A DNA stretch of 42,318 nt from Candidatus Sumerlaeota bacterium (GTDB taxonomy: Bacteria > Sumerlaeota > Sumerlaeia > MWCT01): assembly GCA_016931135.1 (NCBI GenBank), contig JAFGFK010000279.1, positions 1-42,318 of the forward strand. Reading direction: 5' to 3'. Under the pieces are notes generated by a model, which was given only the letters and a program-made list of their open reading frames with translations, ran no database searches and was not told the DNA's origin. How positions within the stretch are numbered: position 1 is the first letter of the stretch; each line of letters starts with the position of its first letter. The position numbers and the translations under genes are program-made. Below, one piece after another: positions 2,506 through 21,982 of the stretch.

Positions 2506-4950
2506 TTACTTTATAATGACCTTGTTCGCCTGTTCCGAAGTTTGGTTTTTCGTCGTTTTCTGCGGTTGATAATTGACGGAATAGAGTTCATTGCCGCCCG
2601 CCTTGAAAATCGGCTTCAGATAACCGGAAGCAATCCATTGCTCCAGATTCAATTCCCGCAGTATCTTATGCTTTTTTTCCATGTCGATCCTGAGATAATA
2701 ATCGATCTTCAACTCCTTGAAGAATTTCAATTTCTCCCGTTCGTCTTTTATGCCGTACGCCTTCTGCATCTCCCAGTCATCGAGGTGAACGATGTTAATC
2801 GAGGGGTCGTAAAGCAGATAACGATTGTCATGAGTTAGAAGCGTTTTTCCGAGCATCAGGGTATTGACATGATCGATCATTCGGGCGTCGGCGCCAAAGA
2901 CATGGCTGTAAAACTCATCCGGCATCATGCCCGGACGCCTCAGGGCGGGGAGATGCTGGGGATATTCCTCCTTGTCTTTTATAACGACCGGGTGAGTTAT
3001 CTTGAAATTCATCAAAGCAAAGGGCAATCCCGGGAGGATAATCACGAGGATACACCAGACATGGAATAGCGCCCGCATTTTTTCACTGGAAAAGTATTCC
3101 ATTACGACAAAAGCGAACAGGATCATCGGCGCAAGGATCGGGATGATCTGATAAAGGTAGTATCCAGCCAGAAAATAATGATAGGACAAAAGACACACAA
3201 AAAGGAACAGCGCCAGAAAAATGGTTTTTTGATTATTGGTAAGATATTTGATCAGCCTGCCGGATCGGGGGTGCCTTTTGCCTTTCAGTTTTTGCGAAAG
3301 GGCTTGCGCAATCCATATTATGATCCCTGGAACGCACAAGGCAAGAAATATCGGAGCGAGTAACCATGCCCATCTCTGGAAGAGGATCAGATAGTAAAAG
3401 GTGGCGATGATTTTGGCAAACAAGGTGAAACGAACGCCGCCTTCCTGGGTTTGCGCATACCACAAATGACGGTTTTCTTCATTGATCGTTCCGGTTTTCT
3501 GTTTATCGTTCACCATGTAGAGAGCGGCTGTATCGATGCCATCCCCATTTTCCAGCCATTCGCCCTGCATGGAAGATAGAATCCGGGGATTGATGTTTTT
3601 CCCTCCGAAGATCGAGGAAAAATAAGGATAAACCGGATTACCGGTCAATGCCCAGTTCCGCGCATACCAGGGCGCGGCAATCAGAAAACACGCCAATATC
3701 AACCGCAGGAAAAATCCGCTTTTGAACAATTCCCCGAGCGTGTCCCAGTCGTCATTATAGGTATATTCCGGTTCAGCCACCTGCTTCAACCGCTCCGGAT
3801 CTCCCAGCATCTCGGAATATTCCTCCTGATCGGAAAGCATGGGAACCCTCGAATGAACCAGGAATATGAGAAAAACCCAGGCAACGAGCAAGAGGGGCGT
3901 CAAATAATTGATATGACAGGCAAATGCAGCGACCAGGGCGCTGAGCATGGCATAGGAGCGAAGTTTTGTGTCGATATACATAACGGCGAGGTAAAGAAAA
4001 GCTGCCGTAAAAAGAATCGTGAGGGCGTAATCGGATGTAAGCGTGAAATACCGGATGCCATAAGGGATGGTGCAGAAGAGCAGCGTCAAGGCTAAGGCGC
4101 TCAGCGTCACGCGGGTCAACCGGAGGATTAAATGATAAATCAGGAGGAGAGAACCCACGCAGCATACAGGCGCCAGAATCTGGGCGTGACAGTTTGACCA
4201 GAAACCGAATACGACTGAAGGCATGGCGCTCGCCAGGCGGTACATCTGGGGATAATTCGATCCTGTTCCGATCCCCATTTGGGCGACAATCTTCACCGGG
4301 AACCGGTGATTGAGAAAAAGGCTCCGCGCCATTCCAAGATAAGAGAGGCTGTCCCAGTAAGTGACAGGATAAAACAGGGCATGATAAAAGATGAGGAGGG
4401 TGATGAGAATCGCGCCTCCCAGGAAAAAGACCGCGCACATCCCCTGGAAAAATCCTGCGGGATGGATGATGGTTTGGGAATAGGCCCGGGACGCCACGGA
4501 GCGTTGTGCGGAACGCATCAGGAAATCATCCGCATATCCTTTGGAAACCTTGACCGGTCTCACCCAGTGCGCGGATGATGAAACAAGCAACGCTACAGTC
4601 AAAGCCAGAAGCAGACCCATGATCGCCCAGCCATAAAAGAATCCGAAGACGCCGCATATCTCCCCCAGGAACGTCGTCATGCTCAATCCCAGAACAAAAC
4701 TCAGAGCCAGGTAGGCAAGGCGGGGGATGAAGATATCAAAACATTTTAACAGAAAATGCCCCAGAAACATGTAAACCGCCAGGGGAACAAGGGAAAGAAG
4801 CGTCTCTTTAAAAGGAAAGTGGGCGAAGGTCAAATCCCATGATCGGAAAAGAGAGGGATAAACCAGGAACAGATTGGGATGTTTATACGTTAAAAATCCC
4901 CACCAGAAGAACATCCAGAATATCAGGAATACTTTGCCCGTGCTCTTCAT
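2506..4950 (-). CDS. Polytopic membrane glycosyltransferase-like protein (GT-C / family 39-like)
   Basis: 814-aa ORF with many hydrophobic helices; loop with 'YWDSLSYLGMARSLFLNHRFPV' typical of GT-C enzymes; next to other glycosyltransferases. Confidence 0.65.
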   Translation of the reverse strand: MKSTGKVFLIFWMFFWWGFLTYKHPNLFLVYPSLFRSWDLTFAHFPFKETLLSLVPLAVYMFLGHFLLKCFDIFIPRLAYLALSFVLGLSMTTFLGEICGVFGFFYGWAIMGLLLALTVALLVSSSAHWVRPVKVSKGYADDFLMRSAQRSVASRAYSQTIIHPAGFFQGMCAVFFLGGAILITLLIFYHALFYPVTYWDSLSYLGMARSLFLNHRFPVKIVAQMGIGTGSNYPQMYRLASAMPSVVFGFWSNCHAQILAPVCCVGSLLLIYHLILRLTRVTLSALALTLLFCTIPYGIRYFTLTSDYALTILFTAAFLYLAVMYIDTKLRSYAMLSALVAAFACHINYLTPLLLVAWVFLIFLVHSRVPMLSDQEEYSEMLGDPERLKQVAEPEYTYNDDWDTLGELFKSGFFLRLILACFLIAAPWYARNWALTGNPVYPYFSSIFGGKNINPRILSSMQGEWLENGDGIDTAALYMVNDKQKTGTINEENRHLWYAQTQEGGVRFTLFAKIIATFYYLILFQRWAWLLAPIFLALCVPGIIIWIAQALSQKLKGKRHPRSGRLIKYLTNNQKTIFLALFLFVCLLSYHYFLAGYYLYQIIPILAPMILFAFVVMEYFSSEKMRALFHVWCILVIILPGLPFALMNFKITHPVVIKDKEEYPQHLPALRRPGMMPDEFYSHVFGADARMIDHVNTLMLGKTLLTHDNRYLLYDPSINIVHLDDWEMQKAYGIKDEREKLKFFKELKIDYYLRIDMEKKHKILRELNLEQWIASGYLKPIFKAGGNELYSVNYQPQKTTKNQTSEQANKVIIK

Positions 4951-9169: not shown

Positions 9170-12100
9170 ATGAAATCAAAGACCATTTTAATGGTGTTTT
9201 TAATTTCACTGGTCGCCCTTTGCCATATTGACGCCCAAGGAGATATTTTATTCTCAGACACCTTTACCGGCACCGATGGGACCAGGCCGGCTAATTGGAA
9301 GATCGTCAATGCCCCTGAAACGAACTTCTGGTTCCTGCAGGATGGACAATTATGCACGGGAAACGGAGATGATATATTGACGGGAGGGGGCTTCTCTTAC
9401 GCCATTATCAGCGCTCCCGCCGCGCAGTCATGGACGGATTACAGTATCCAAACCTCCTCCTGGATGTATCAGGCGAATGGCAATATGATGATTATTGCCA
9501 GATGGCTGGATGAGAACAACCATTATCGGGGAGTTATGGAAACCTTGAAGGGCGCTCGTTCTCTCAAGATAGAGAAGGTTCTCAAGGGAAATAGAACCGT
9601 TCTTGCCGAAGTCAAGGACGGCGTTGACGGAGTCAATATTCCCCCGATGGAAAATGGAACGTCTCCCGCCGATGCCCGCACGTTTCAATTCATTGTTTCC
9701 GGGTCGAAACTGACCTTCATTATGGGGGGAGCGGTATCGGTTCAAGCGACGGACGCCAGCTTCCCGTCGGGATCGGCAGGCGTCGGCGAATGGTTTCATT
9801 ACGCCTATTTTGATGATGTTGTCGTTCAGAAAGTTCAGGAAGGAGAAATCCCCTCAAAACCGGTTTCCCAGATACCAACGGTGATTCAACCATTGGGCTC
9901 TCTTGGAACGTCCGCTTCCACTCCGGGAACCATTTTCCGGATATTGATAGGTGAGGAATTGCCGGAACAAACGGCAAAGGATCTCCGGGATCAGCTTATC
10001 AGTTGGGGATACACCCCTGTCGAGTTATTTCAGAAAGATACCGGATACGATGTATATCTGGGCGCGTTTCTGTCCGATGCGGAGGCTCAGTCTGCCAAGG
10101 GTTTCCTGGAAGAGGAAGGTTTGAGTCCGCGCCGGATCGTTTCTTTGAGCGGCGACAAGGCGGTGGAAGTCAAAAAACAGGCAACCACAGCCAAAAGAAA
10201 TTTCCGCGTTCTGGCGCGTGAGTTCACGGATATAAGTTTCGCTGAAAAAATGAAAAAAGCCCTGGAAGAAGACGGGTATTTCCCGGTGGAAATTGTCAGT
10301 ATGGGCGCTAATCACAGGGTGTATATTGGCAGTTTCAATAATAGCGATGAGGCGGATAAACTTTCCAGAGCCTTGAAAGCGGATGGATATGACACCGCCA
10401 CTGTTATCGAAACGGAATTGGATACAGACATGTCAACGATTTTTCCGCCTTCCACAATAGCGTCCGCCCCTTCTTCGCCCGAACCGTTCAATCCGGCGAT
10501 GATTGCCGGCAAGTCCTCTGAATGGGAAGCCCTTTCCGAAAAACAAAAAGGGGAAGTTATGGATATCATTACCCTTCAGGAATCCTTGAAGCATGGGGAC
10601 ATGGTCACCAACGAGATATTGGGTATCAAGAAAAAAATTGAAGAACTGACCATGGAGCAGAAAAGAATCGTTGATATCTGGCGCGGCGAGGCGGAAAAAG
10701 AACAATCCAAACAAAGAACAATCGCGGAATTGGTCAAGAAAGCGGAAAACGCAAGAGATCAGAGGCAATGGGATGAAGCGCTCAAGTTCTGCGAAGAAGT
10801 CAAGAAACTGGACCCTAATAACGGTCGCGTCGTCATGATCGAACGATCGATCAAGGTCATAACGGAAGAAGATTATGAAGGCAAGAAGATCATCGAGGAG
10901 CAGGAGCGGGAAAAGATCAAAAGGGCGCGCGATATGGCGGAATCTCTGGAAAAACAGCAGAAATTCGAAGCCTCCCGCGCCCAATGGGGAATGGTTTTGA
11001 GCCTCGCCAAACCTGGTTCCCTCGATTATAACGACGCCAATACCGCGATCGGAAGAATCGACGGACTCCTTGCCGAAGCGGAGACCCAAAGACACAAACG
11101 GGAACAAAGCAGGCTCTATACCCTCTATGGTATCGGAGCTATCATGCTCCTTCTTGTTTTCCTGATCGTCATGATTGTCATTCGAAGCAGAAAACATGAC
11201 CGCGAACTTCTGCGTCAGGTTCAGGAATTGACGCTGAAACCACTCCTTGAGCTTCAGGAGGGCAAGGGACCCGCTGCCATTGAGGATATGACCTCTGACG
11301 TTCAATCCGCTGCTGCGGCTGCAATGCAAACTCCCGCAAGTACGGGAAAGAAAAAACATAAAAAACCGATAGCGGCGCCTGCGCCGGTGGAGGTTCCGGA
11401 ACCGGTCTTTGCGGAAGAGCCCGAAGAGATTCCCGAACCCGAACCCATTCCCGCTCCCGATATATATCCCGTTCCTGAAGTGGAAACGGCTCAAACCGGT
11501 TTCGAGAGCGTGAAATCCGTGGAAAAAGAGGAATTACCCGTTCCCTCCATCGACGACCTCGCTTTTGAGGAATCCCTTGCGTTGTCAGGCGATAAACAGG
11601 AGTCGGTTCCTCTGGAACCTTCTTCGTTGGACGCCTTGGAAGGGGGAGAGTTTGAACCCGCCCCTGTTTTATCGGAACCTGTCAAAGGACCTTCCGTGGA
11701 TGTCGATGACCTCTTTGATGAGACAACCCTGGAAGATGAAACCCTGAAATTGTCGCCTCTTTCTAATCTGGAAGAAAAGACGCCGCTGCCCGGTTTCCAG
11801 GAGATTTCCCTGGAGCCCATCACCCCTTCTTCTTCAAAGGAAAAGAAACAAACCCCGCCCCTTTATTCCCATAAAGAAGACGATATTACCGAGGTTATCC
11901 TTCCTTCCCGGATGGTTCGGGAACCTCTCGATGTCGGGACGCCGAATATCAACTCCCTGGAAACGCCCAGACCTGTTGAAGTCTCGGAATCTGTCCCTTC
12001 CATATCAAAAGCCGACACGACTCCCGAGGCGTTCAAACCCTCCAGCGTCGATTCCAACGTCATTTACGAGCAGGATTTTGATCAGGAGCAAAACGGGTCT

Positions 12101-12631
12101 ATTCCCGCAAATTGGAAGGGTAATTATAATTACGCCTCCCTCGTTGTCAGTGATCAATCCCCGGCTCCGGATTCCAGAAAGTGCATTGTCTTTGAAAAGG
12201 AGAAGGGAGCGGGCAGCGCCTTCTATTGTTGCCATTTTGCCGAAACAAGCGGAGTTGTGGGAATCGAGTTCGATCTTCGATGCGATATGAAAAACAAATA
12301 TCTCCTGGGCTTCTATATCGAAAAGGATGAAGATTATCGCTATTCCATTCACACGGTTATCCAATATATCAACTCCGGGAAACAAAGCGCCAAACCCTCT
12401 CTGCGCGTTCAGGGAAAACCGGTGCCTTACAATTGGGGGGATTGGAGACACATCAAATATATCGTCAATCTGATTGACGCTACGGTGGATGGATACGTGG
12501 ATGGCGAATTGATCGCCAACGGTGAAAAACTGGCAAGTTGTCCTACCAGCTTGAATACGATTTCAATACGGGATAATTTAGCCACTGTCGGAAAGCTAAT
12601 GATTGACAATATCAAAATTTATAAGGCATAA
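9170..12631 (+). CDS. Large single-TM protein: N-terminal jelly-roll-like domain, two SPOR-like repeats, coiled/TPR region, TM, acidic Pro-rich linker, C-terminal jelly-roll-like domain
   Basis: ORF 9134..12631; internal ATG at 9170 starts signal peptide MKSKTILMVFLISLVALCHIDAQ. Tandem 'FRILIGEELPEQTAKDLRDQLISWGYTPVELF...YDVYLGAFLSDAEAQ' and 'FRVLAREFTDISFAEKMKKALEEDGYFPVEIV...HRVYIGSFNNSDEAD'. TM 'LYTLYGIGAIMLLLVFLIVMIVIRS'. Confidence 0.75.
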   Translation: MKSKTILMVFLISLVALCHIDAQGDILFSDTFTGTDGTRPANWKIVNAPETNFWFLQDGQLCTGNGDDILTGGGFSYAIISAPAAQSWTDYSIQTSSWMYQANGNMMIIARWLDENNHYRGVMETLKGARSLKIEKVLKGNRTVLAEVKDGVDGVNIPPMENGTSPADARTFQFIVSGSKLTFIMGGAVSVQATDASFPSGSAGVGEWFHYAYFDDVVVQKVQEGEIPSKPVSQIPTVIQPLGSLGTSASTPGTIFRILIGEELPEQTAKDLRDQLISWGYTPVELFQKDTGYDVYLGAFLSDAEAQSAKGFLEEEGLSPRRIVSLSGDKAVEVKKQATTAKRNFRVLAREFTDISFAEKMKKALEEDGYFPVEIVSMGANHRVYIGSFNNSDEADKLSRALKADGYDTATVIETELDTDMSTIFPPSTIASAPSSPEPFNPAMIAGKSSEWEALSEKQKGEVMDIITLQESLKHGDMVTNEILGIKKKIEELTMEQKRIVDIWRGEAEKEQSKQRTIAELVKKAENARDQRQWDEALKFCEEVKKLDPNNGRVVMIERSIKVITEEDYEGKKIIEEQEREKIKRARDMAESLEKQQKFEASRAQWGMVLSLAKPGSLDYNDANTAIGRIDGLLAEAETQRHKREQSRLYTLYGIGAIMLLLVFLIVMIVIRSRKHDRELLRQVQELTLKPLLELQEGKGPAAIEDMTSDVQSAAAAAMQTPASTGKKKHKKPIAAPAPVEVPEPVFAEEPEEIPEPEPIPAPDIYPVPEVETAQTGFESVKSVEKEELPVPSIDDLAFEESLALSGDKQESVPLEPSSLDALEGGEFEPAPVLSEPVKGPSVDVDDLFDETTLEDETLKLSPLSNLEEKTPLPGFQEISLEPITPSSSKEKKQTPPLYSHKEDDITEVILPSRMVREPLDVGTPNINSLETPRPVEVSESVPSISKADTTPEAFKPSSVDSNVIYEQDFDQEQNGSIPANWKGNYNYASLVVSDQSPAPDSRKCIVFEKEKGAGSAFYCCHFAETSGVVGIEFDLRCDMKNKYLLGFYIEKDEDYRYSIHTVIQYINSGKQSAKPSLRVQGKPVPYNWGDWRHIKYIVNLIDATVDGYVDGELIANGEKLASCPTSLNTISIRDNLATVGKLMIDNIKIYKA

Positions 12632-12709: not shown

Positions 12710-15700
12710 ATGGGGAAGCTATCACAAAGCGGCATTATCGAGCAGATTAATGATAAGATCGACGCCAAAGTATTGTTCGATAAAATCAACTATGCCCCTG
12801 ATAAGGTTCAGATTATCGGGACGACATTGAAATGTTTCTGTCCCCTGCATAAGGAAAAGGCGTTTCGATCTCTCATCGTCGATCTTAAAAAGAACTCCTT
12901 TCGTTGCAGTCTCAAAGGGTGCCCCGGATTTGAGGGGGGAACCCTCGTTCATTTCTACTCCCTTCATACGGGACAACCTGAAATCAAATCCGCATTCAGC
13001 CTGGCGAAACTCCTGAACCTGGAGATAGACCCGGATATGATTCAGGGACTGTCTCAAAGTTTCAAGGAAGAAGCCCAACAAGCCTTTCTGGAAAGGGATA
13101 TCGAAAAAGCCCAGAATTTCGCCTCTCAAGCCCTGGATGTCGATCCCGGCAATCTTGGCGCCAGATTCCTGATGGCTCAAGCCTTGGAGGAACTCGGAAA
13201 TAATGTCGGAGCCATCAAGGAATTCCAAGCCACTGCGGATGGTTACTCGGACCTGGGTGAATTCAACAGAGCCATCGAAATTTATGAAATGTATATCCTT
13301 AAAAGAGAACCTCGGAATGAGGAAATACTTCAGAAAGTGGCGATCCTGTACGAAAACCTCGGAGATAAGGATCGCGCCATCGAATTCTATCTGATCATTG
13401 CCTCCGAGAACGATAAAAAGAGCCAGAATGACAAGAATATTCCCCTTTTTCATAAAATCCTGGAGATGAACCCCTCAAGGAATGAAGTTCGACTCCAACT
13501 GGCGCAACTCTATGAATCCATCGAAAATCTCCCGATGGCCGTTGACCAGTATCTGGACGTCGCATCCTGGCGCCGCAATCAGGGAGATCTTCCCTCCGCT
13601 CTGTCCATCCTCGAACATATCAAACAAACTGTTCCGGAAAATTTCAACTGCCGGGAACAAATTGCCGAAATCTATTACGAACAGGGCAATTATGAAAAGG
13701 TCGAACAGGAATATCTGCAACTGGGAGAAATCGCCATTGAACAGGATGAATTGCATACCGCAGAAAGATTTTACAAGATACTTCTCGAGAAATTTCCTCA
13801 ATCCCTTGAAGGGCGCCAGGGACTGATCAATCTGTTCGAGAAAATGGAAAACCGCACCGCTTTCAGCCGCGAAAGCATAGGGCTTGCCGATATTCTCGAA
13901 TCAATGGGCGATCTTGAACGCGCTACGACGGTTCTGGCGCGGGCAAAACGTCAAAGTCCCAGCGATGTTTATATCAGGGAAAAGCTCATCCAGTTGCTTA
14001 TCAAGGCGAATCTTCGCGATGAAACGGTGGAAGAGTATTTTGAACTCGCAGACCTTTATAATGAGGTGGGGGAGGATCAGACGGTCGCCTCATGCCTCGA
14101 TAAAATCAAAAGCCTTCATCCGAAAAACCTGAAAACGCTCATCAGGGCGGCGTCTCAGTTTTATAAATACGATGATAAACAAAAGGGGCTGGCGGAATTT
14201 TTACAGTTAGCCGATGATCTCCAGGATGATGAATCCTTTGATTCCAGTATCAGCGTTTGTGAAGAAGCCCTCAAATGGGAACCCGATAATATTTCCATTC
14301 TGGAGCGGTTGCTGTCGGCGCAGACACAGGTCGGCTTGAAGGATCAGGCTCTGGAAACGTATCAGAAACTTTATCAGATTTATCGTAATGCCGATAATAT
14401 CGGAAAAGCGGAAGAAGCGCTTCGGGACGCCCTCACGCTCGATGAAAAAAATGTCCGCATTCATTCCCAGCTGACGGATATATATCTTTATCAGAACAAC
14501 ACGGCAAACGCCCTTTCCACACTGACTTCCTTAAGTCAGATCTATTATGAAAATGAGGATATCGATGGGGGAATCGAAACCGCCAGAAAAATCCTGGAAC
14601 TCAATCCTGATTCCGTCGCTATCAGGGAACGCCTGGCTTATCTCTACAGGGAAAACAAGATTTTTGACCAATCCATCGAGGAATACAATCTCGCAGCGGA
14701 ATATTATATCAGCCAGAATCAGCATACCGCTGCCATTAACGATCTCAAAGCGGTCCTCGAGATCGATGAAAACAATTATGAATCTGTGCTGAAAATCTCG
14801 AACCTCCTTCTGGAATACGAGTCGTTCGAGGAGGCGCTCCCTTATCTGATGAAAGGATTGGAACTTCTCAAAAGCGGGTGGGGAAGCCCCGAGGACGTGG
14901 TCAAGGAATACCACAGAATCCTCGCTTTGAAAGAAAATCAACTTCAACTCCGCGAGGAATTCATCGCCTATCTGAAATCCATTGATTATAAGGATGAAGC
15001 CTTCAAGGAAATTCGATCCCTGGTGGATTTGTATAAAGAACAGAAGAATTTCCCCAAATCGGCAGGCCTTTTGGAAGAACTAATTCCTCTCAAACCTGAA
15101 GATAACTCCCTGAAGTCTGAATTGGCTGATATGTATATGTCTATGGATATCCATCAGGAAGCCCTGAATTATTACGCCCAGGCAGCCGCCGGGTACAGAG
15201 AACAGGGCGAGGAATCCAAAACCATTGAAATCTATCGCAAGATTCTCCAAATCGATCCCCAGGAAGAATCCATCCGGGAAGAACTCGCCCAGATTCTTGC
15301 CTCCCAGGCTTCTCAATCCGAGAAATCATCCAAACGCTCCAAAGGCGCAAACCTGAAAACCGAAGCCATTGAACATTTCCTCTTCCTGATCAACAAAAGA
15401 AGACAGGAAGAGCGGGAACATGAAAATACCCGATTTTATATGAAAATACTCGATTTGGACCCTGAAATGAAAGATATTCGGGAAAAACTCGCCGCAGCTT
15501 ATGAAATGGCTCAGGATCCCGAATCCGCTCTGGAACAGTTGATGATCCTGGCGGAATCTTATAAAAAGGAGGGCGATTTTAATACCGCCATTGAACGGTG
15601 CAAGCGCGCCAAAACCATCCTCCCGGGGAATGAAATGCCCAGGGGGCTCCTCTTGAATCTTTATGAAGCCTCGGGCGATACGGCGTCCCTGAAAAATGAA

Positions 15701-18700
15701 CATATCGCGCTCGGTGAAATATGGCTGAACAGGTTGATGCCGGACAAGGCGGAAAAACATTTCCTCGAAGCTCAAAAACTCGATCCTACCGATATTGGCG
15801 TAGGGGAGAAACTTGCCGAGATTCATGAAGCCAGGGAAGATTATGAGGCGGCTTGCTCACAATATCGAAAAGTCAGCTCTTTGTATGAAGAGAAAGGCGA
15901 ACTGACGAGCGCAATCGCCGCGCTTCGGAAAATCAAACTTCTCGATCCTTATAACTTCGAGTCCCGGGAAAAAATCGCGGATTTGCTTGCCAAAGTCCGG
16001 GAAATTCCCGAGTCGCTTGAGGAATATTATGAACTCGCCGTGCTTTCTTTTGAAATCCAGAAGCCTGATAAAGCCCGGCTTTTCATAGAAAAGATTTCCG
16101 AAATCGCTCCCGATCATTTTGAATTCCGTCTCAAAGTGATCCAGCTCCTTCATAATTACAACAAAGCGGATGAAGCCATCGAGGAACTTCTCAATCTGTG
16201 CGCCATCCTCCTCCAGGGAGGGCGCCTGGACAATCTTCTCAAAGCCGTTGATTTCGGATTGAAACTCGATGAAACGCTTCTGAATCTCAGGGAATTCAGG
16301 ATCAAAGCCCTCCTGGGCTCTAATAATATCAAGGACGCGCTCGATGAGTACCACATTGCTGCGCGCTTCGCCTTCCATCAGGAGAAATACGAAAACGCGG
16401 AAACATATTTGAACGCCATACTGGAAAGAAAACCCAAGGACCTGGAAGCCCTTCAGCAAAGCGTCGAGTGCGCCTTGAAACTCGATAAAATCGAATCTGC
16501 GGTTGATTTCCTGATGAAACTGATCCCCCTCTTCGAGAAAAACGAGGATTTTGAAAAAGCAATCGACGCCTCCAAACGTATCCTGGAGCTTACGCCGGAT
16601 AATGTGGAAGTCATGAAACAACTGGCGAAATTCTACCTCAACGCCTCTCGGGAATCCGAAGCGGTGCGCGCCTTTGGCGCCATCGCTGATTTCTACGTCT
16701 CTCATGGAAATTATACCGAAGCCTGCACGTATCTTTCCCGCATCCTCGAATACGATACGGATTCCATTCCCACGATCCGAAAACTGGCTTTCCTGATTTA
16801 TGAAAACGAGAATCTCTTCAAGGCGCGTCCTCATTTCAGGAAGTTCCTCGAACTCTGTAAGTCCCAATTGCCCCCGGAGGAAACGATAAAAGAATATCAC
16901 AATGTCCTCAAAGTCGATCCAGCCAATCCCCAACTGATCCTCGAATTCGCGCGATTCCTCCAGAGCATCGAGGAATTGGAGAAAGCCCGGGAACAGTATT
17001 TGAAGGCGTCATCGCTTCTCACGGAAGACGCCAGAACCCGTGGGAAAGCCATTCAAATCCTGAATGAATTGATGGAAGTCTTCCCCAATGACACGGACAT
17101 CCTTTCTCAACTGGCTGATCTCTGCGTAAAGGAAAACAAGCCGGAACAAGCCTTTATCCATTTCAACAGGATTGCCGGTATTTTTCTCGAGAGAAAAGAC
17201 TTGAAGGAATCCATCAATTTTTATCTCAAGGCCTTGCGAATCAAACCGGATGACGCTGACTTGATATTGAAAATCGGGGAACTGTATGAAGAGATGGGGG
17301 ACGCTACAAAGGCGGTTCAACAATACCTCAATCTTTCTGATCTGAATGTCAAACTGAACAAGACAAGCCAGAATATTGAGATTTATCAGAGAATCCTTTC
17401 TCTTGATGAATCCATGAAACCGGTTCGTCATAAACTTGCCCGGCTTTATGAAAAGGAAAAACGAATCGACAAAGCCACGATTCATTATCTGTATCTTGGA
17501 AGGCAGTATGAAGAGGAGAAAGAGCGGAATCAAGCCCTCGCCGTTTATCAGCATATCAAATCCATCAATCCTGAAGAGGAGGAAAATCGCAAATTCATGG
17601 TGGAGATTTATCTCGCCACCAAGAGAAAGGAACAGGCGAAGCTTGAGTTGGAGGAACTGGCTGATCTGTACATGAAAAACCAGCAACTGGCCGAAGCCCA
17701 GGTTCACCTCCTGAAAGTGAAGGATATTGCCCCCCAGGACATTGGAGTAGCGGAAAAACTCGCGCTATTGTTCGATCAACAGGGCGAGAAGGAGCTATCC
17801 GCAAACGAATATGCGCGGGCATCCGCCCTTTATTTGAAAAGCGACGATTTTGAAAAAGCCGTTCACGTTCTTTTAAAAGCCAAGGAATTGATTCCCGAAA
17901 ATACCGAATATCGCGAAGAACTCCTGAAATGCTATGAAAAATCCCGGAAGAACAGCGAATTCCTGAGCGAAGGCATGGCATTGGCGGGCCTTTATTTCTC
18001 GTTCCAGAAAAATAAAGAGGCAACCAGGATATGCAAAATCATTTCCGCCTTTCAACCTTCCAACGTGGAATTGCGACTTCAAGTCGCCAATCTGTACGAG
18101 GCGAACGGTTTGCGGGAGCAGGCGCTCGAGGAATATCTCAATCTGTGCCGGTTTCTTCTGGAATCCAAGAATTTTGCCAAAGCCGGGGAAGCGTGCGAAA
18201 CCGGACTTGCCCTTTCTCCGGATCATGTCCCTCTTCTCGAAGCTGAAATCGATGTTTTCCTGGGACTCGAGAATCTTCCCAAAGCCGTTGAATTGTTCCT
18301 GAAACTCGCCGGAATACATCATGCCAGCGAAAATCCAACCGCAGAGGAACAGTCCTATCGCAAAGCCCTTGAAATCCTTCCGGAACATATCCCGGCTCAT
18401 GATGGATTGATAAACCTCCTCACCGTGGCCGGAAGAATACAGGAAGCCGTCGATCAACTCCTTGTTCTGAGCGGCATTCATGAAAAACAAAATAACATTG
18501 AGGCAGCCATACAGAAACGCCAGGAAATTCTTATTCTGCAACCGGAAAATATCAATGTTCGGGATGGACTTGCCACACTGTACAAATCCCAGGGAAACAA
18601 CAACGCCGCTATCCAGGAATATTTCACCCTTGCCCAGATGTGCGAGGATGATGAGAATTTCAAGGGGGCTCGAAATTATTACGAGGCGATTCTGCAGATC

Positions 18701-21700
18701 GACAACAGAAAAGTGGACGCTATCAGGGCTATTATAAACCTTGCCCAGAAAAAGAAGGACGTCGAAGTCTTCATCCAGTATTCCCAGCGCCTCGCCGATT
18801 ATTTTGAAAGCGTTCAAGCCTTCGCCGACGCGATTCCTCTCTATCAGGGGATCATTGATTGGGACAAGAACTATCTGGCTGCGTATCAGAAGTTGGGATT
18901 CTGCCTGGAGGCCGTCGGGAAGATCGAGGAAGCCGTCCATATCTATAAAGAGCTTGGGGAACAGTATCAGAAACAGGACGCCCTGAACGCAGCCGTTCAA
19001 TATTTTCAACTTGTGGAAAAACATCGTCCCAATGATTGGAACAATTTGAAGAATATGGCGGATCTCTATGTCAAACTCAAGAATACCGATCAAGCCACTG
19101 TTTATTATACGCAAACCATAGATATTCTCAGGTCTTTGGACAATCTGGATGAGGCGTTGAAACTAGCCCAAACTCTTGTTAAAATAAAACCCAACCACGT
19201 TCCCTCTTATCAGATATTCGCGGAAATCCTGGAAACGAAGGGCGAAGACCCCAAGGCGAGTGAGGCGTACGCGTATATAGCCTCCCTTCTGGATAAGGAG
19301 AAAAAGATTCAGGAAGCCATGAACGCGAGGGCTTCCGCCCTTCGCCTCTCTCCCGATCTGGTGGAAGAAAGGGAAAAATATGCAGCTAATCTCGTCCAAC
19401 TGGGACAAAACGATGAGGCGATCTTTCAATATCTCCAGATTACCGATGAATATGTCAAACGTCAGAATCATGACAATGCCATAGCCTCTGCGCGAACAGT
19501 TTTCAAACTCGATGACGCCAATCCGGACGCTCACCTCAAACTGAAAAATATCTTTATGACCATCGGCAATACCCGGGACGCCCTCCAGGAAATGGGATGG
19601 ATCGCCAGGGATTATATACAAAAAGGACTTCTCCAGGATTCCGAGACGATTCTATTGGAAGCAGTCCAACTGAATCCAAACGACCTTTCCTTCAGGGAAG
19701 ACCTTGCTTTGGTTTATCAGAAAACCGACCAGCCCGCAAAAGCTACGGAACAACTCCTCAAGATTACCCAGCAGTCCCTTGTCGATGGAGATTTGAACAA
19801 GGCTATTTCCAGCCTGGAGAAAGCCAAGTCTCTGGCAAAAGATAATATCGAAATCCGAAAGAACCTGGCGGAACTTTATTATCGGAATAATCTTCCGGAA
19901 AAAGCCCGGGAGGAACTCTTCAGCGTCGCAAATATTTATCTGGAACAAGGCTTGATCGAAGAAGCCAATAAAATCTGCGATATGATGATCCAGGAGTCTC
20001 CCAAGGATTGCTCCCTCAGGGAACTGATTGGAGACCTTTTCAAGGAACAGGAAATCCCGGAGCTTGCCGTCAAACAATACCTGGAAATCTCTTTCCTGAA
20101 AAAGACGGAATCCGCCTATGAAGATGTCATCAAATATGCCGACATGTCCCTGGAATTGAATCCTAAATGTCTTGAAGCGCACGAAAACCGTATCGAGGCG
20201 CTTCTTAAAATCGACAGACGCTCCGAGGCGTACGATGCACTCCTGACCGTTTCCGAATTTTATTCGGACCTGGGGCTGTTTGAAAAGGCGAGAGACGCCT
20301 ACAGGATGATGGCGGAACTGGCCCCGGACGATCCGGTTCCCATCCAGAAACTCGCCCTGGTCTATTCCCTGATGAATAAAAAGGACGATCAGATTAACGC
20401 GCTTCGGGAGTTGGGCGATATCTTCCTGAGACTCGATCGGACAGAGGACGCCGTGAAAACCTTCCGCTCCATTATCGATCTCAGACCCGATGACACGAGA
20501 GCCAGGGTTCAATATATCGATCTGTATTCCCGTATCGGACCGGAACAGGAATTGGTCGATGATTATATCAAGCTGATCGATATTTTCATAAAACACAAAG
20601 CGACCGCTGAAGCCACGCGTATCTTCGAGAAACTGATTCGCATCACGCCCGAAGACGCCGAAATCCGGGAGAAGTTCATCCGCTTCCTCGTTCAGAATAA
20701 TGATAGAGCCAAAGCCTTCGGGGAAATGTCGTCCCTTTCCTCCATGTATATGGAAAGCGGGGAACTCAAAAAGGCCTCGAGACTTCTGGGGGAGGCGGTG
20801 AAAATCGCCCCTGAGGATCCTTCCGTTCATCTGCAACTCGCGGAAACCTATGTCATGATGAATGCCAAAGGAATGGCGGTGCAGGAGTTCAAGAAATCCG
20901 CCACTCTGTTCGAAAAAATCGACAATCCCGCGAAGTCCCTTGAAATATGTGAAAGAATCATCATGATCGATCCTTATAACCTCGAAGTCAGACAGACCTA
21001 TATCGAACGACTGAAGAAAACAGACCGTATAGAGGATATCGTGGTTCACTCCCAAAAACTGGCTGACTTGTATATCGAAAGAGGACTTCTGGACCTTGCC
21101 GAGAACGTCTATCGGGACATCCTTAAAATCCAACCGGATAATATTGAAATCTGGAATTTTCTGATTCAAACCCATCTCCAGATCGGGCTCGAAGAAGACC
21201 TTGTCGATGATTATCTTTCCCTGGGAGACCTGTATCTCTCCAAGGGCGCGTTAAAGGAGGCTCTGGTTCAGTATAAAAAGGTGATCGAAGCCGATCCCTT
21301 GAATGTCGAGGTTCGACGGAAATATATTGATACCTATCTGCAGATCGGACTGGAACATGACCTGATAGACGATTATCTGGAATTGGCGGACGCCCTCATG
21401 AATCGCCAGCAGATCGAAGACGCCATCCGACTTTATTCCCATGTCATGTCTTTAGATCCCGATAATAAACAGGCGCGGATGAAATTATCCGAAACCAGGG
21501 GGCAAACCGACAAGCCCGATAAAAAGGGCAAAAGAAAAAAGGCTGACAAGGAAGAAAGGGAACAGATATCCCTGGCGACTGACCTTCCTAAAAAACCGGT
21601 CGAACGCCCATCCCTTCCGGAAGTTTCTTATCAGTCAGCCATTGATAATTATAAAAATATTCTCTCCATGAATCCGGCAAATGCCAATATCCGCTGTAAA

Positions 21701-21982
21701 CTCGCTGAAATTTATTCGAAAACCGGGAAGATGGATGAAGCGGTCGATGAATGGGATAAAGCCAGTGAAACATTCATCCTCAAGGGAGAACTGGATAAGG
21801 GAATATCTCTTTGTGAAAAAATACTCGAAATCAAACCCAAACACGCCGTTTCCAGGGATCGTCTCTCCAAGGCTATCCTGCAGCGCGATTCCTTCAAGGC
21901 GATTGAAAGCGCCATCTCTTCCTACGCCGATTCTCAGGACAAAGCCCCCGGCGAAAATACAAGCACCGAAGGCGACGCTTGA
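12710..21982 (+). CDS. Giant (3090 aa) TPR-like solenoid protein with N-terminal CHC2-like zinc finger
   Basis: Single uninterrupted 9.3 kb ORF. N-terminus 'CFCPLHKEKAFRSLIVDLKKNSFRCSLKGCPGFEGGTLVHFYSLHTG' matches the DnaG-type CHC2 pattern (CPxH...Cx4C...G). The remainder is repeats of the form AIxxYxKILxLxPxNxxxREKLAxLYxxxGxxxxAIxEYLxLAxxYxxxxxxxx. Confidence 0.9.
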   Translation: MGKLSQSGIIEQINDKIDAKVLFDKINYAPDKVQIIGTTLKCFCPLHKEKAFRSLIVDLKKNSFRCSLKGCPGFEGGTLVHFYSLHTGQPEIKSAFSLAKLLNLEIDPDMIQGLSQSFKEEAQQAFLERDIEKAQNFASQALDVDPGNLGARFLMAQALEELGNNVGAIKEFQATADGYSDLGEFNRAIEIYEMYILKREPRNEEILQKVAILYENLGDKDRAIEFYLIIASENDKKSQNDKNIPLFHKILEMNPSRNEVRLQLAQLYESIENLPMAVDQYLDVASWRRNQGDLPSALSILEHIKQTVPENFNCREQIAEIYYEQGNYEKVEQEYLQLGEIAIEQDELHTAERFYKILLEKFPQSLEGRQGLINLFEKMENRTAFSRESIGLADILESMGDLERATTVLARAKRQSPSDVYIREKLIQLLIKANLRDETVEEYFELADLYNEVGEDQTVASCLDKIKSLHPKNLKTLIRAASQFYKYDDKQKGLAEFLQLADDLQDDESFDSSISVCEEALKWEPDNISILERLLSAQTQVGLKDQALETYQKLYQIYRNADNIGKAEEALRDALTLDEKNVRIHSQLTDIYLYQNNTANALSTLTSLSQIYYENEDIDGGIETARKILELNPDSVAIRERLAYLYRENKIFDQSIEEYNLAAEYYISQNQHTAAINDLKAVLEIDENNYESVLKISNLLLEYESFEEALPYLMKGLELLKSGWGSPEDVVKEYHRILALKENQLQLREEFIAYLKSIDYKDEAFKEIRSLVDLYKEQKNFPKSAGLLEELIPLKPEDNSLKSELADMYMSMDIHQEALNYYAQAAAGYREQGEESKTIEIYRKILQIDPQEESIREELAQILASQASQSEKSSKRSKGANLKTEAIEHFLFLINKRRQEEREHENTRFYMKILDLDPEMKDIREKLAAAYEMAQDPESALEQLMILAESYKKEGDFNTAIERCKRAKTILPGNEMPRGLLLNLYEASGDTASLKNEHIALGEIWLNRLMPDKAEKHFLEAQKLDPTDIGVGEKLAEIHEAREDYEAACSQYRKVSSLYEEKGELTSAIAALRKIKLLDPYNFESREKIADLLAKVREIPESLEEYYELAVLSFEIQKPDKARLFIEKISEIAPDHFEFRLKVIQLLHNYNKADEAIEELLNLCAILLQGGRLDNLLKAVDFGLKLDETLLNLREFRIKALLGSNNIKDALDEYHIAARFAFHQEKYENAETYLNAILERKPKDLEALQQSVECALKLDKIESAVDFLMKLIPLFEKNEDFEKAIDASKRILELTPDNVEVMKQLAKFYLNASRESEAVRAFGAIADFYVSHGNYTEACTYLSRILEYDTDSIPTIRKLAFLIYENENLFKARPHFRKFLELCKSQLPPEETIKEYHNVLKVDPANPQLILEFARFLQSIEELEKAREQYLKASSLLTEDARTRGKAIQILNELMEVFPNDTDILSQLADLCVKENKPEQAFIHFNRIAGIFLERKDLKESINFYLKALRIKPDDADLILKIGELYEEMGDATKAVQQYLNLSDLNVKLNKTSQNIEIYQRILSLDESMKPVRHKLARLYEKEKRIDKATIHYLYLGRQYEEEKERNQALAVYQHIKSINPEEEENRKFMVEIYLATKRKEQAKLELEELADLYMKNQQLAEAQVHLLKVKDIAPQDIGVAEKLALLFDQQGEKELSANEYARASALYLKSDDFEKAVHVLLKAKELIPENTEYREELLKCYEKSRKNSEFLSEGMALAGLYFSFQKNKEATRICKIISAFQPSNVELRLQVANLYEANGLREQALEEYLNLCRFLLESKNFAKAGEACETGLALSPDHVPLLEAEIDVFLGLENLPKAVELFLKLAGIHHASENPTAEEQSYRKALEILPEHIPAHDGLINLLTVAGRIQEAVDQLLVLSGIHEKQNNIEAAIQKRQEILILQPENINVRDGLATLYKSQGNNNAAIQEYFTLAQMCEDDENFKGARNYYEAILQIDNRKVDAIRAIINLAQKKKDVEVFIQYSQRLADYFESVQAFADAIPLYQGIIDWDKNYLAAYQKLGFCLEAVGKIEEAVHIYKELGEQYQKQDALNAAVQYFQLVEKHRPNDWNNLKNMADLYVKLKNTDQATVYYTQTIDILRSLDNLDEALKLAQTLVKIKPNHVPSYQIFAEILETKGEDPKASEAYAYIASLLDKEKKIQEAMNARASALRLSPDLVEEREKYAANLVQLGQNDEAIFQYLQITDEYVKRQNHDNAIASARTVFKLDDANPDAHLKLKNIFMTIGNTRDALQEMGWIARDYIQKGLLQDSETILLEAVQLNPNDLSFREDLALVYQKTDQPAKATEQLLKITQQSLVDGDLNKAISSLEKAKSLAKDNIEIRKNLAELYYRNNLPEKAREELFSVANIYLEQGLIEEANKICDMMIQESPKDCSLRELIGDLFKEQEIPELAVKQYLEISFLKKTESAYEDVIKYADMSLELNPKCLEAHENRIEALLKIDRRSEAYDALLTVSEFYSDLGLFEKARDAYRMMAELAPDDPVPIQKLALVYSLMNKKDDQINALRELGDIFLRLDRTEDAVKTFRSIIDLRPDDTRARVQYIDLYSRIGPEQELVDDYIKLIDIFIKHKATAEATRIFEKLIRITPEDAEIREKFIRFLVQNNDRAKAFGEMSSLSSMYMESGELKKASRLLGEAVKIAPEDPSVHLQLAETYVMMNAKGMAVQEFKKSATLFEKIDNPAKSLEICERIIMIDPYNLEVRQTYIERLKKTDRIEDIVVHSQKLADLYIERGLLDLAENVYRDILKIQPDNIEIWNFLIQTHLQIGLEEDLVDDYLSLGDLYLSKGALKEALVQYKKVIEADPLNVEVRRKYIDTYLQIGLEHDLIDDYLELADALMNRQQIEDAIRLYSHVMSLDPDNKQARMKLSETRGQTDKPDKKGKRKKADKEEREQISLATDLPKKPVERPSLPEVSYQSAIDNYKNILSMNPANANIRCKLAEIYSKTGKMDEAVDEWDKASETFILKGELDKGISLCEKILEIKPKHAVSRDRLSKAILQRDSFKAIESAISSYADSQDKAPGENTSTEGDA

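Follow-up and report, generated by a model that had tools for sequence, protein, structure and literature searches.

FimV/HubP proteins combine a periplasmic wall-binding domain, a transmembrane segment, an acidic cytoplasmic part and a tetratricopeptide repeat (TPR) domain (PMC12918733). The window analysed here, a stretch of 42,318 nucleotides from a Candidatus Sumerlaeota bacterium, encodes a comparable series of modules distributed over two neighbouring genes, the second of which specifies a giant protein headed by a primase-type (CHC2) zinc finger (Table 1). Literature searches for CHC2 combined with TPRs, for a three-helix TPR-like repeat and for a 54-residue repeat found no paper, and a search for DnaA with a TPR domain had only unrelated eukaryotic work among the ten best matches listed. 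The Sumerlaeota genome paper (PMC8092238) likewise makes no mention of TPRs, primase, zinc fingers, giant genes or DnaA. The family is conserved within the uncultured phylum Sumerlaeota and has hitherto been undescribed. Most of the functional information is carried by two components absent from the original prediction, namely the DnaA-fused paralogues of the giant and the neighbouring envelope protein.

Table 1. Coordinates of the features discussed, in the window unless another locus is given
Feature	Position	Strand	Basis or properties
Partner gene, 1,165 aa	9134..12631	+	Signal peptide, periplasmic part, transmembrane segment, acidic linker, C-terminal domain
SPOR domain of partner, residues 355-420	10196..10393	+	Pfam PF05036, E 7.9e-11
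Predicted transmembrane segment of partner, residues 659-688, then basic residues	11108..11197	+	Hydropathy scan
Predicted concanavalin-like jelly roll, partner C-terminus	11987..12625	+	Predicted structure; sequence comparison
Giant CHC2-TPR protein	12710..21982	+	Single ORF, 3,090 aa, 355 kDa, pI 5.0
CHC2 (DnaG-type) zinc finger, residues 6-101	12725..13012	+	Pfam, PDB profile search, invariant columns, AlphaFold2
Helix pair joining finger to array, residues 108-144	13031..13141	+	AlphaFold2 secondary structure
Tandem 54-aa units (~53), residues 146-3042	13145..21835	+	Autocorrelation, repeat HMM, AlphaFold2
C-terminal platform, residues 2777-3072	21038..21925	+	Conservation profile, segment HMMs
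Lys/Pro-rich linker breaking the array ahead of the last unit, residues ~2930-2975	21497..21634	+	Repeat map, sequence
CHC2-TPR-DnaA fusion, giant's own genome, contig C401	L051:8656-12741		DnaA ATPase profile

A giant solenoid built of 54-residue units

The giant had been predicted as one uninterrupted reading frame, and no internal stop was found in it. Since two other genomes encode collinear orthologues of 3,071 and 3,079 aa, it is unlikely to be an assembly artefact. Neither a signal peptide nor a transmembrane or other hydrophobic segment was detected by the hydropathy scan, and no enzymatic domain, AAA+ included, was found. Elsewhere in the window, two open frames on the minus strand (2506-4950 and 1723-2460; 814 and 245 aa) lack a Pfam match.

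Autocorrelation of residues 111-2960 (BLOSUM62, z over shuffles) peaks at 54 (z 29.8) and 108 (z 27.4), with secondary peaks at 20 (z 12.9) and 34 (z 11.3) and another at 88 ranked between them, while a canonical TPR array (L132) peaks at 34. The proposed spacing of 54 rather than the canonical 34 residues was thus confirmed, together with the three-helix unit that had been suggested from an alternation of 34 and 20 residues. In the AlphaFold2 model of residues 1-440, built from 35 aligned sequences (mean pLDDT 94.6), the predicted solenoid is present and each unit consists of three helices, about 13, 17 and 14 residues long (e.g., 258-270, 274-290 and 294-307), so that the array does not match the canonical 34-residue unit of two helices. 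The number of units, estimated by eye at about 54, comes to 53 with the repeat HMM: residues 146 to 2989, from the first to the last unit, correspond to 52 x 54 residues plus 35 inserted ones. The unit could be summarised in a consensus of 54 residues (letters not shown), whose middle helix combines the pattern of TPR helix B (A..Y..L) with that of TPR helix A (LA..Y). On this ground the modelled unit reads as two 34-residue TPRs that overlap by 14 residues (2 x 34 - 14 = 54) and have the middle helix in common. Foldseek related the predicted segment to TPR superhelices, with E-values down to 1.5e-11 and query-normalised TM-scores of about 0.13-0.26 among the 50 matches listed; in the model, therefore, local helix packing is TPR-like, but the global path differs from that of the structures listed.

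The repeat had been described as unusual, which holds for its 54-residue, three-helix form but not for its being special to the giant. When a five-unit query was run against 197 other genomes as a specificity control, TPR proteins with a top period of 54 were found in unrelated bacteria (e.g., L118, L119, L122, L130 and L133), including a protein of 2,721 aa (L141), and no CHC2 finger was seen at those N-termini that were read. As these matches were picked by the query, they show that 54-residue arrays occur elsewhere and not how frequently. The new part is consequently the combination with CHC2 and not the repeat, and the shared-helix unit seems to be under-described and more widespread than Sumerlaeota.

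TPR helices in tandem exceed family thresholds, with TPR_19 reaching 483.6 bits on the giant, and two alternative explanations draw on scores of this kind. According to the first, the giant is a long but ordinary TPR protein of the type of PrsT from the exosortase system, whose model (TIGR02917) scores 347.3 bits in the NCBIfam scan, above its cut-off of 312.2. However, that score is a sum over many repeats, the model has 899 positions against the 3,090 residues of the giant, and the giant combines a CHC2 head with the absence of an export signal or membrane segment; the PrsT annotation was rejected on the missing export signal and the finger, and we regard this explanation as very improbable. 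Automatic annotation may nevertheless mislabel the giant in this way. The second explanation, a polarity or pilus hub in which a protein-only scaffold like SgmX uses the zinc finger as a protein-binding cap, is in keeping with the existence of CHC2-less 54-residue arrays in other bacteria and with a match of the SgmX model (NF052243) to 16 stretches of the giant. That match amounts to 259.7 bits, far below the cut-off of 1,800, and reflects the TPRs common to both, and among the Pfam matches of the window no pilus gene was recognised. We regard such a hub as improbable.

Relatives of the giant are encoded by metagenome-assembled genomes of Candidatus Sumerlaeota/BRC1, and the co-occurrence of CHC2 and solenoid across genomes, a check proposed in the original prediction, proved to be phylum-wide. 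The finger profile matches all 39 genomes of the class, with DnaG alone accounting for the match in two of them (G027 and G033); giants of 1,800-3,845 aa are present in at least 22 of the 39. The largest lies at L075:8664-19901, where the stretch fetched covers 3,746 aa or more and the genome search gives a frame of 3,845 aa. Two further CHC2 types occur in the class, TPR-containing proteins of 430-600 aa and single fingers of 130-180 aa, and no conserved neighbour gene was found for the 490-aa and 135-aa representatives in the neighbourhood comparison. Among the CHC2-TPR proteins from the phylum that were retrieved and had sufficient length for the test, nearly all have a top period of 54 or 108. 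Within one order, giants can be aligned over their whole length (52% and 33% identity). The number of units is stable within families, being 52.3-52.7 in the giant and its two nearest full-length orthologues and 44.1-44.2 in three members of family f6.

Conservation along the giant is concentrated at its ends. The mean over four orthologues is highest in residues 20-93, 2777-2912 and 2980-3072, the last two stretches belonging to the C-terminal platform, which includes a KAIESAI-type end motif in most orthologues. The mid-array is fast-evolving, and identity there is mostly ~13-32% for the more remote orthologues among the four. Judging from this pattern, the ends could be functional contacts, and the middle a spacer or a variable client surface.

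The primase-type finger and its DnaA-fused relatives

The CHC2 finger narrowly misses the Pfam cut-off (PF01807, residues 10-107, 22.3 bits, E 1.2e-4; cut-off 24.9), which the CHC2-TPR paralogue of the same genome clears (25.9-30.7 bits). Its identification, already made in the original prediction, is borne out by this score together with the match of a family profile built from ten relatives to DnaG zinc domains of known structure, 2au3 (E 1.9e-5) and 1d0q. The ligands C44, H47, C66 and C71 are invariant in the alignment of relatives, and 23 of the 24 giant-type fingers retain the C-x2-H...C...C pattern. The finger is basic (pI 8.7) in a protein that is acidic as a whole, although the finger of one orthologue (L073) has a pI of 6.0. 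No TOPRIM domain is present among the 25 Pfam matches listed for the giant, and its mapped part beyond residue 108 is helical repeat, in agreement with the claim that no primase core follows; a separate DnaG exists. A tree of 67 fingers sets the family apart from DnaG (SH-aLRT 100) and groups 19 of the 24 giant-type fingers in a single clade (support 98); its alignment is short, many of its forks are open and the fingers from outside Sumerlaeota sit on long branches without a settled position. A protein combining CHC2 with DnaB (L104) was set aside from the family as primase-helicase-like.

Paralogues with a DnaA-type ATPase are also widespread. Frames of at least 900 aa, mostly 1,360-2,150 aa, are present in at least 31 of the 39 class genomes, and most genomes with such a fusion also encode an ordinary DnaA. 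In the paralogue from the giant's own genome, residues 1125-1284 match the DnaA ATPase with 212 bits (PF00308 range 212-222 bits), and the AAA+ domain scores 312 bits with TIGR00362 and 79 bits with Hda. Aligned against genuine DnaA from two genomes, the paralogues retain Walker A (VGLGKTH), Walker B (DDVQF), the TSDRPP sensor and the RLxSRF arginine, and their chains end after the AAA+ lid, with domain IV absent. In several genomes the fusion adjoins a nadC-like gene.

These observations raise the possibility of a replication or chromosome factor, in which the CHC2 heads would bind single-stranded DNA or primers as in DnaG, the giant and the DnaA fusion would act jointly at origins or the replisome, and the envelope link would be secondary. 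The kinship of the finger with DnaG, the occurrence of the fusion alongside genuine DnaA and its conserved ATPase motifs all argue for this explanation. On the other hand, the giant has no enzymatic domain, the fusion lacks domain IV, and the zinc ligands of the finger have been lost in two DnaA-type paralogues of family f14 (L046 and L050). In addition, a genome of the UBP4 phylum encodes a CHC2-type head ahead of a GGDEF domain (L095:2886-3743, 25.8 bits), so the head is not bound to replication. We consider a replication factor rather unlikely.

The membrane protein encoded upstream and a possible envelope anchor

The partner gene stops 78 bases 5' of the giant on the same strand. Its product contains two stretches recognised by Pfam as SPOR, a peptidoglycan-binding kind of domain, and an acidic, proline-rich linker (21% D+E, pI 4.2). 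The C-terminal domain of about 210 aa, 39-72% identical to 13 relatives, is predicted to form a jelly roll (pLDDT 89.8) similar to concanavalin-like folds (5mqr, TM 0.66; calreticulin). From hydropathy and the positive-inside rule, the partner is predicted to be a single-pass protein with the SPOR part in the periplasm and the jelly roll in the cytoplasm.

The C-terminal domain of the partner was found in 40 of 393 genomes, namely 38 of the 40 from Sumerlaeota and both of those from the phylum to which UBP4 belongs. The position comparison places the partner directly upstream of a CHC2 gene on the same strand in 24 of these genomes, and a CHC2 match of the giant's family occurs in 39 of the 40, as opposed to nine of the 353 others, six of these nine being weak. 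In one partner-bearing genome (G027) no CHC2-TPR protein was detected, and in family f9 and in G036 the partner and the giant are located on separate contigs. In f9 (L074, L080 and L083) the giant is preceded by a lipoprotein-like gene and the partner is encoded at another site; the lipoprotein-like product was examined and proved to be a different protein, which indicates that the linkage was lost in this family.

We tentatively put forward, as a reading that falls short of probable, that the giant is a cytoplasmic scaffold anchored to the envelope via the partner, with a FimV/HubP-like layout spread over two proteins and the zinc finger presented to nucleic acid or to a protein. The SPOR domains would put the partner at the septal or polar wall, and its jelly roll would dock on the giant, with the C-terminal platform as the likeliest site. 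The solenoid could act as an extended spacer whose grooves bind clients, and the finger, away from the membrane, might bind nucleic acid or another component, with the CHC2-TPR-DnaA paralogue as a putative ATP-dependent member of the same system. Counted in favour of the anchored scaffold are the upstream position and co-occurrence of the partner, the resemblance of its SPOR, transmembrane and acidic parts to those of FimV, the conservation of both ends of the giant, the unit number stable within families, the retained ligand pattern and the basic finger on an acidic protein. Counted against it are the contig separation in f9 and G036, the lipoprotein-like gene of f9, the genome with a partner and no CHC2-TPR protein, and the orthologue whose finger is not basic. 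Segment HMMs also show a weak platform or none in f6 giants and the UBP4 genome, despite an adjacent partner in both, which likewise speaks against the anchored scaffold and makes the docking site a guess.

The nucleic-acid- or protein-docked assembly suggested by the original prediction is an inference, and the giant may link the cell envelope to nucleic acid. It is a further step, and a doubtful one, to suppose a phylum-wide system in which primase-type fingers, 54-residue TPR giants and a DnaA-derived ATPase form a physical link between the chromosome or its replication and a SPOR-marked division site in the envelope. Most Sumerlaeota genomes encode giant scaffolds that reuse the DnaG finger and the DnaA ATPase of the replication machinery, and one of these scaffolds is paired with a membrane protein of the wall-binding type. 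If the envelope link is true, this would be a new mode of cell organisation connecting chromosome and division.

Comparison with known systems

The partner and the giant repeat the FimV/HubP order, with a putative wall-binding module, a single transmembrane segment, an acidic part and a TPR scaffold. They differ in being two genes, in having SPOR in place of LysM and ~53 TPR units, and in the addition of the CHC2 finger and the jelly roll; neither LysM nor the C-terminal FimV domain was matched in the Pfam and NCBIfam scans. SgmX, a TPR protein of Myxococcus, shares the long cytoplasmic TPR array and a weak profile similarity, but is about a third of the giant's length and, to our knowledge, has no CHC2 finger. 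The giant resembles TPR superhelices such as O-GlcNAc transferase (1w3b) in local helix packing, whereas the global TM-score is 0.16 and three helices per 54 residues stand against two per 34. With DnaG, the giant has in common the N-terminal CHC2 domain and its ligand pattern, but its second ligand pair is C-x4-C and both the TOPRIM core and the helicase-binding domain are missing. Finally, the CHC2-TPR-DnaA paralogue shares its AAA+ domain with DnaA and Hda, and differs from DnaA in carrying CHC2-TPR in place of domains I-II and in ending ahead of domain IV.
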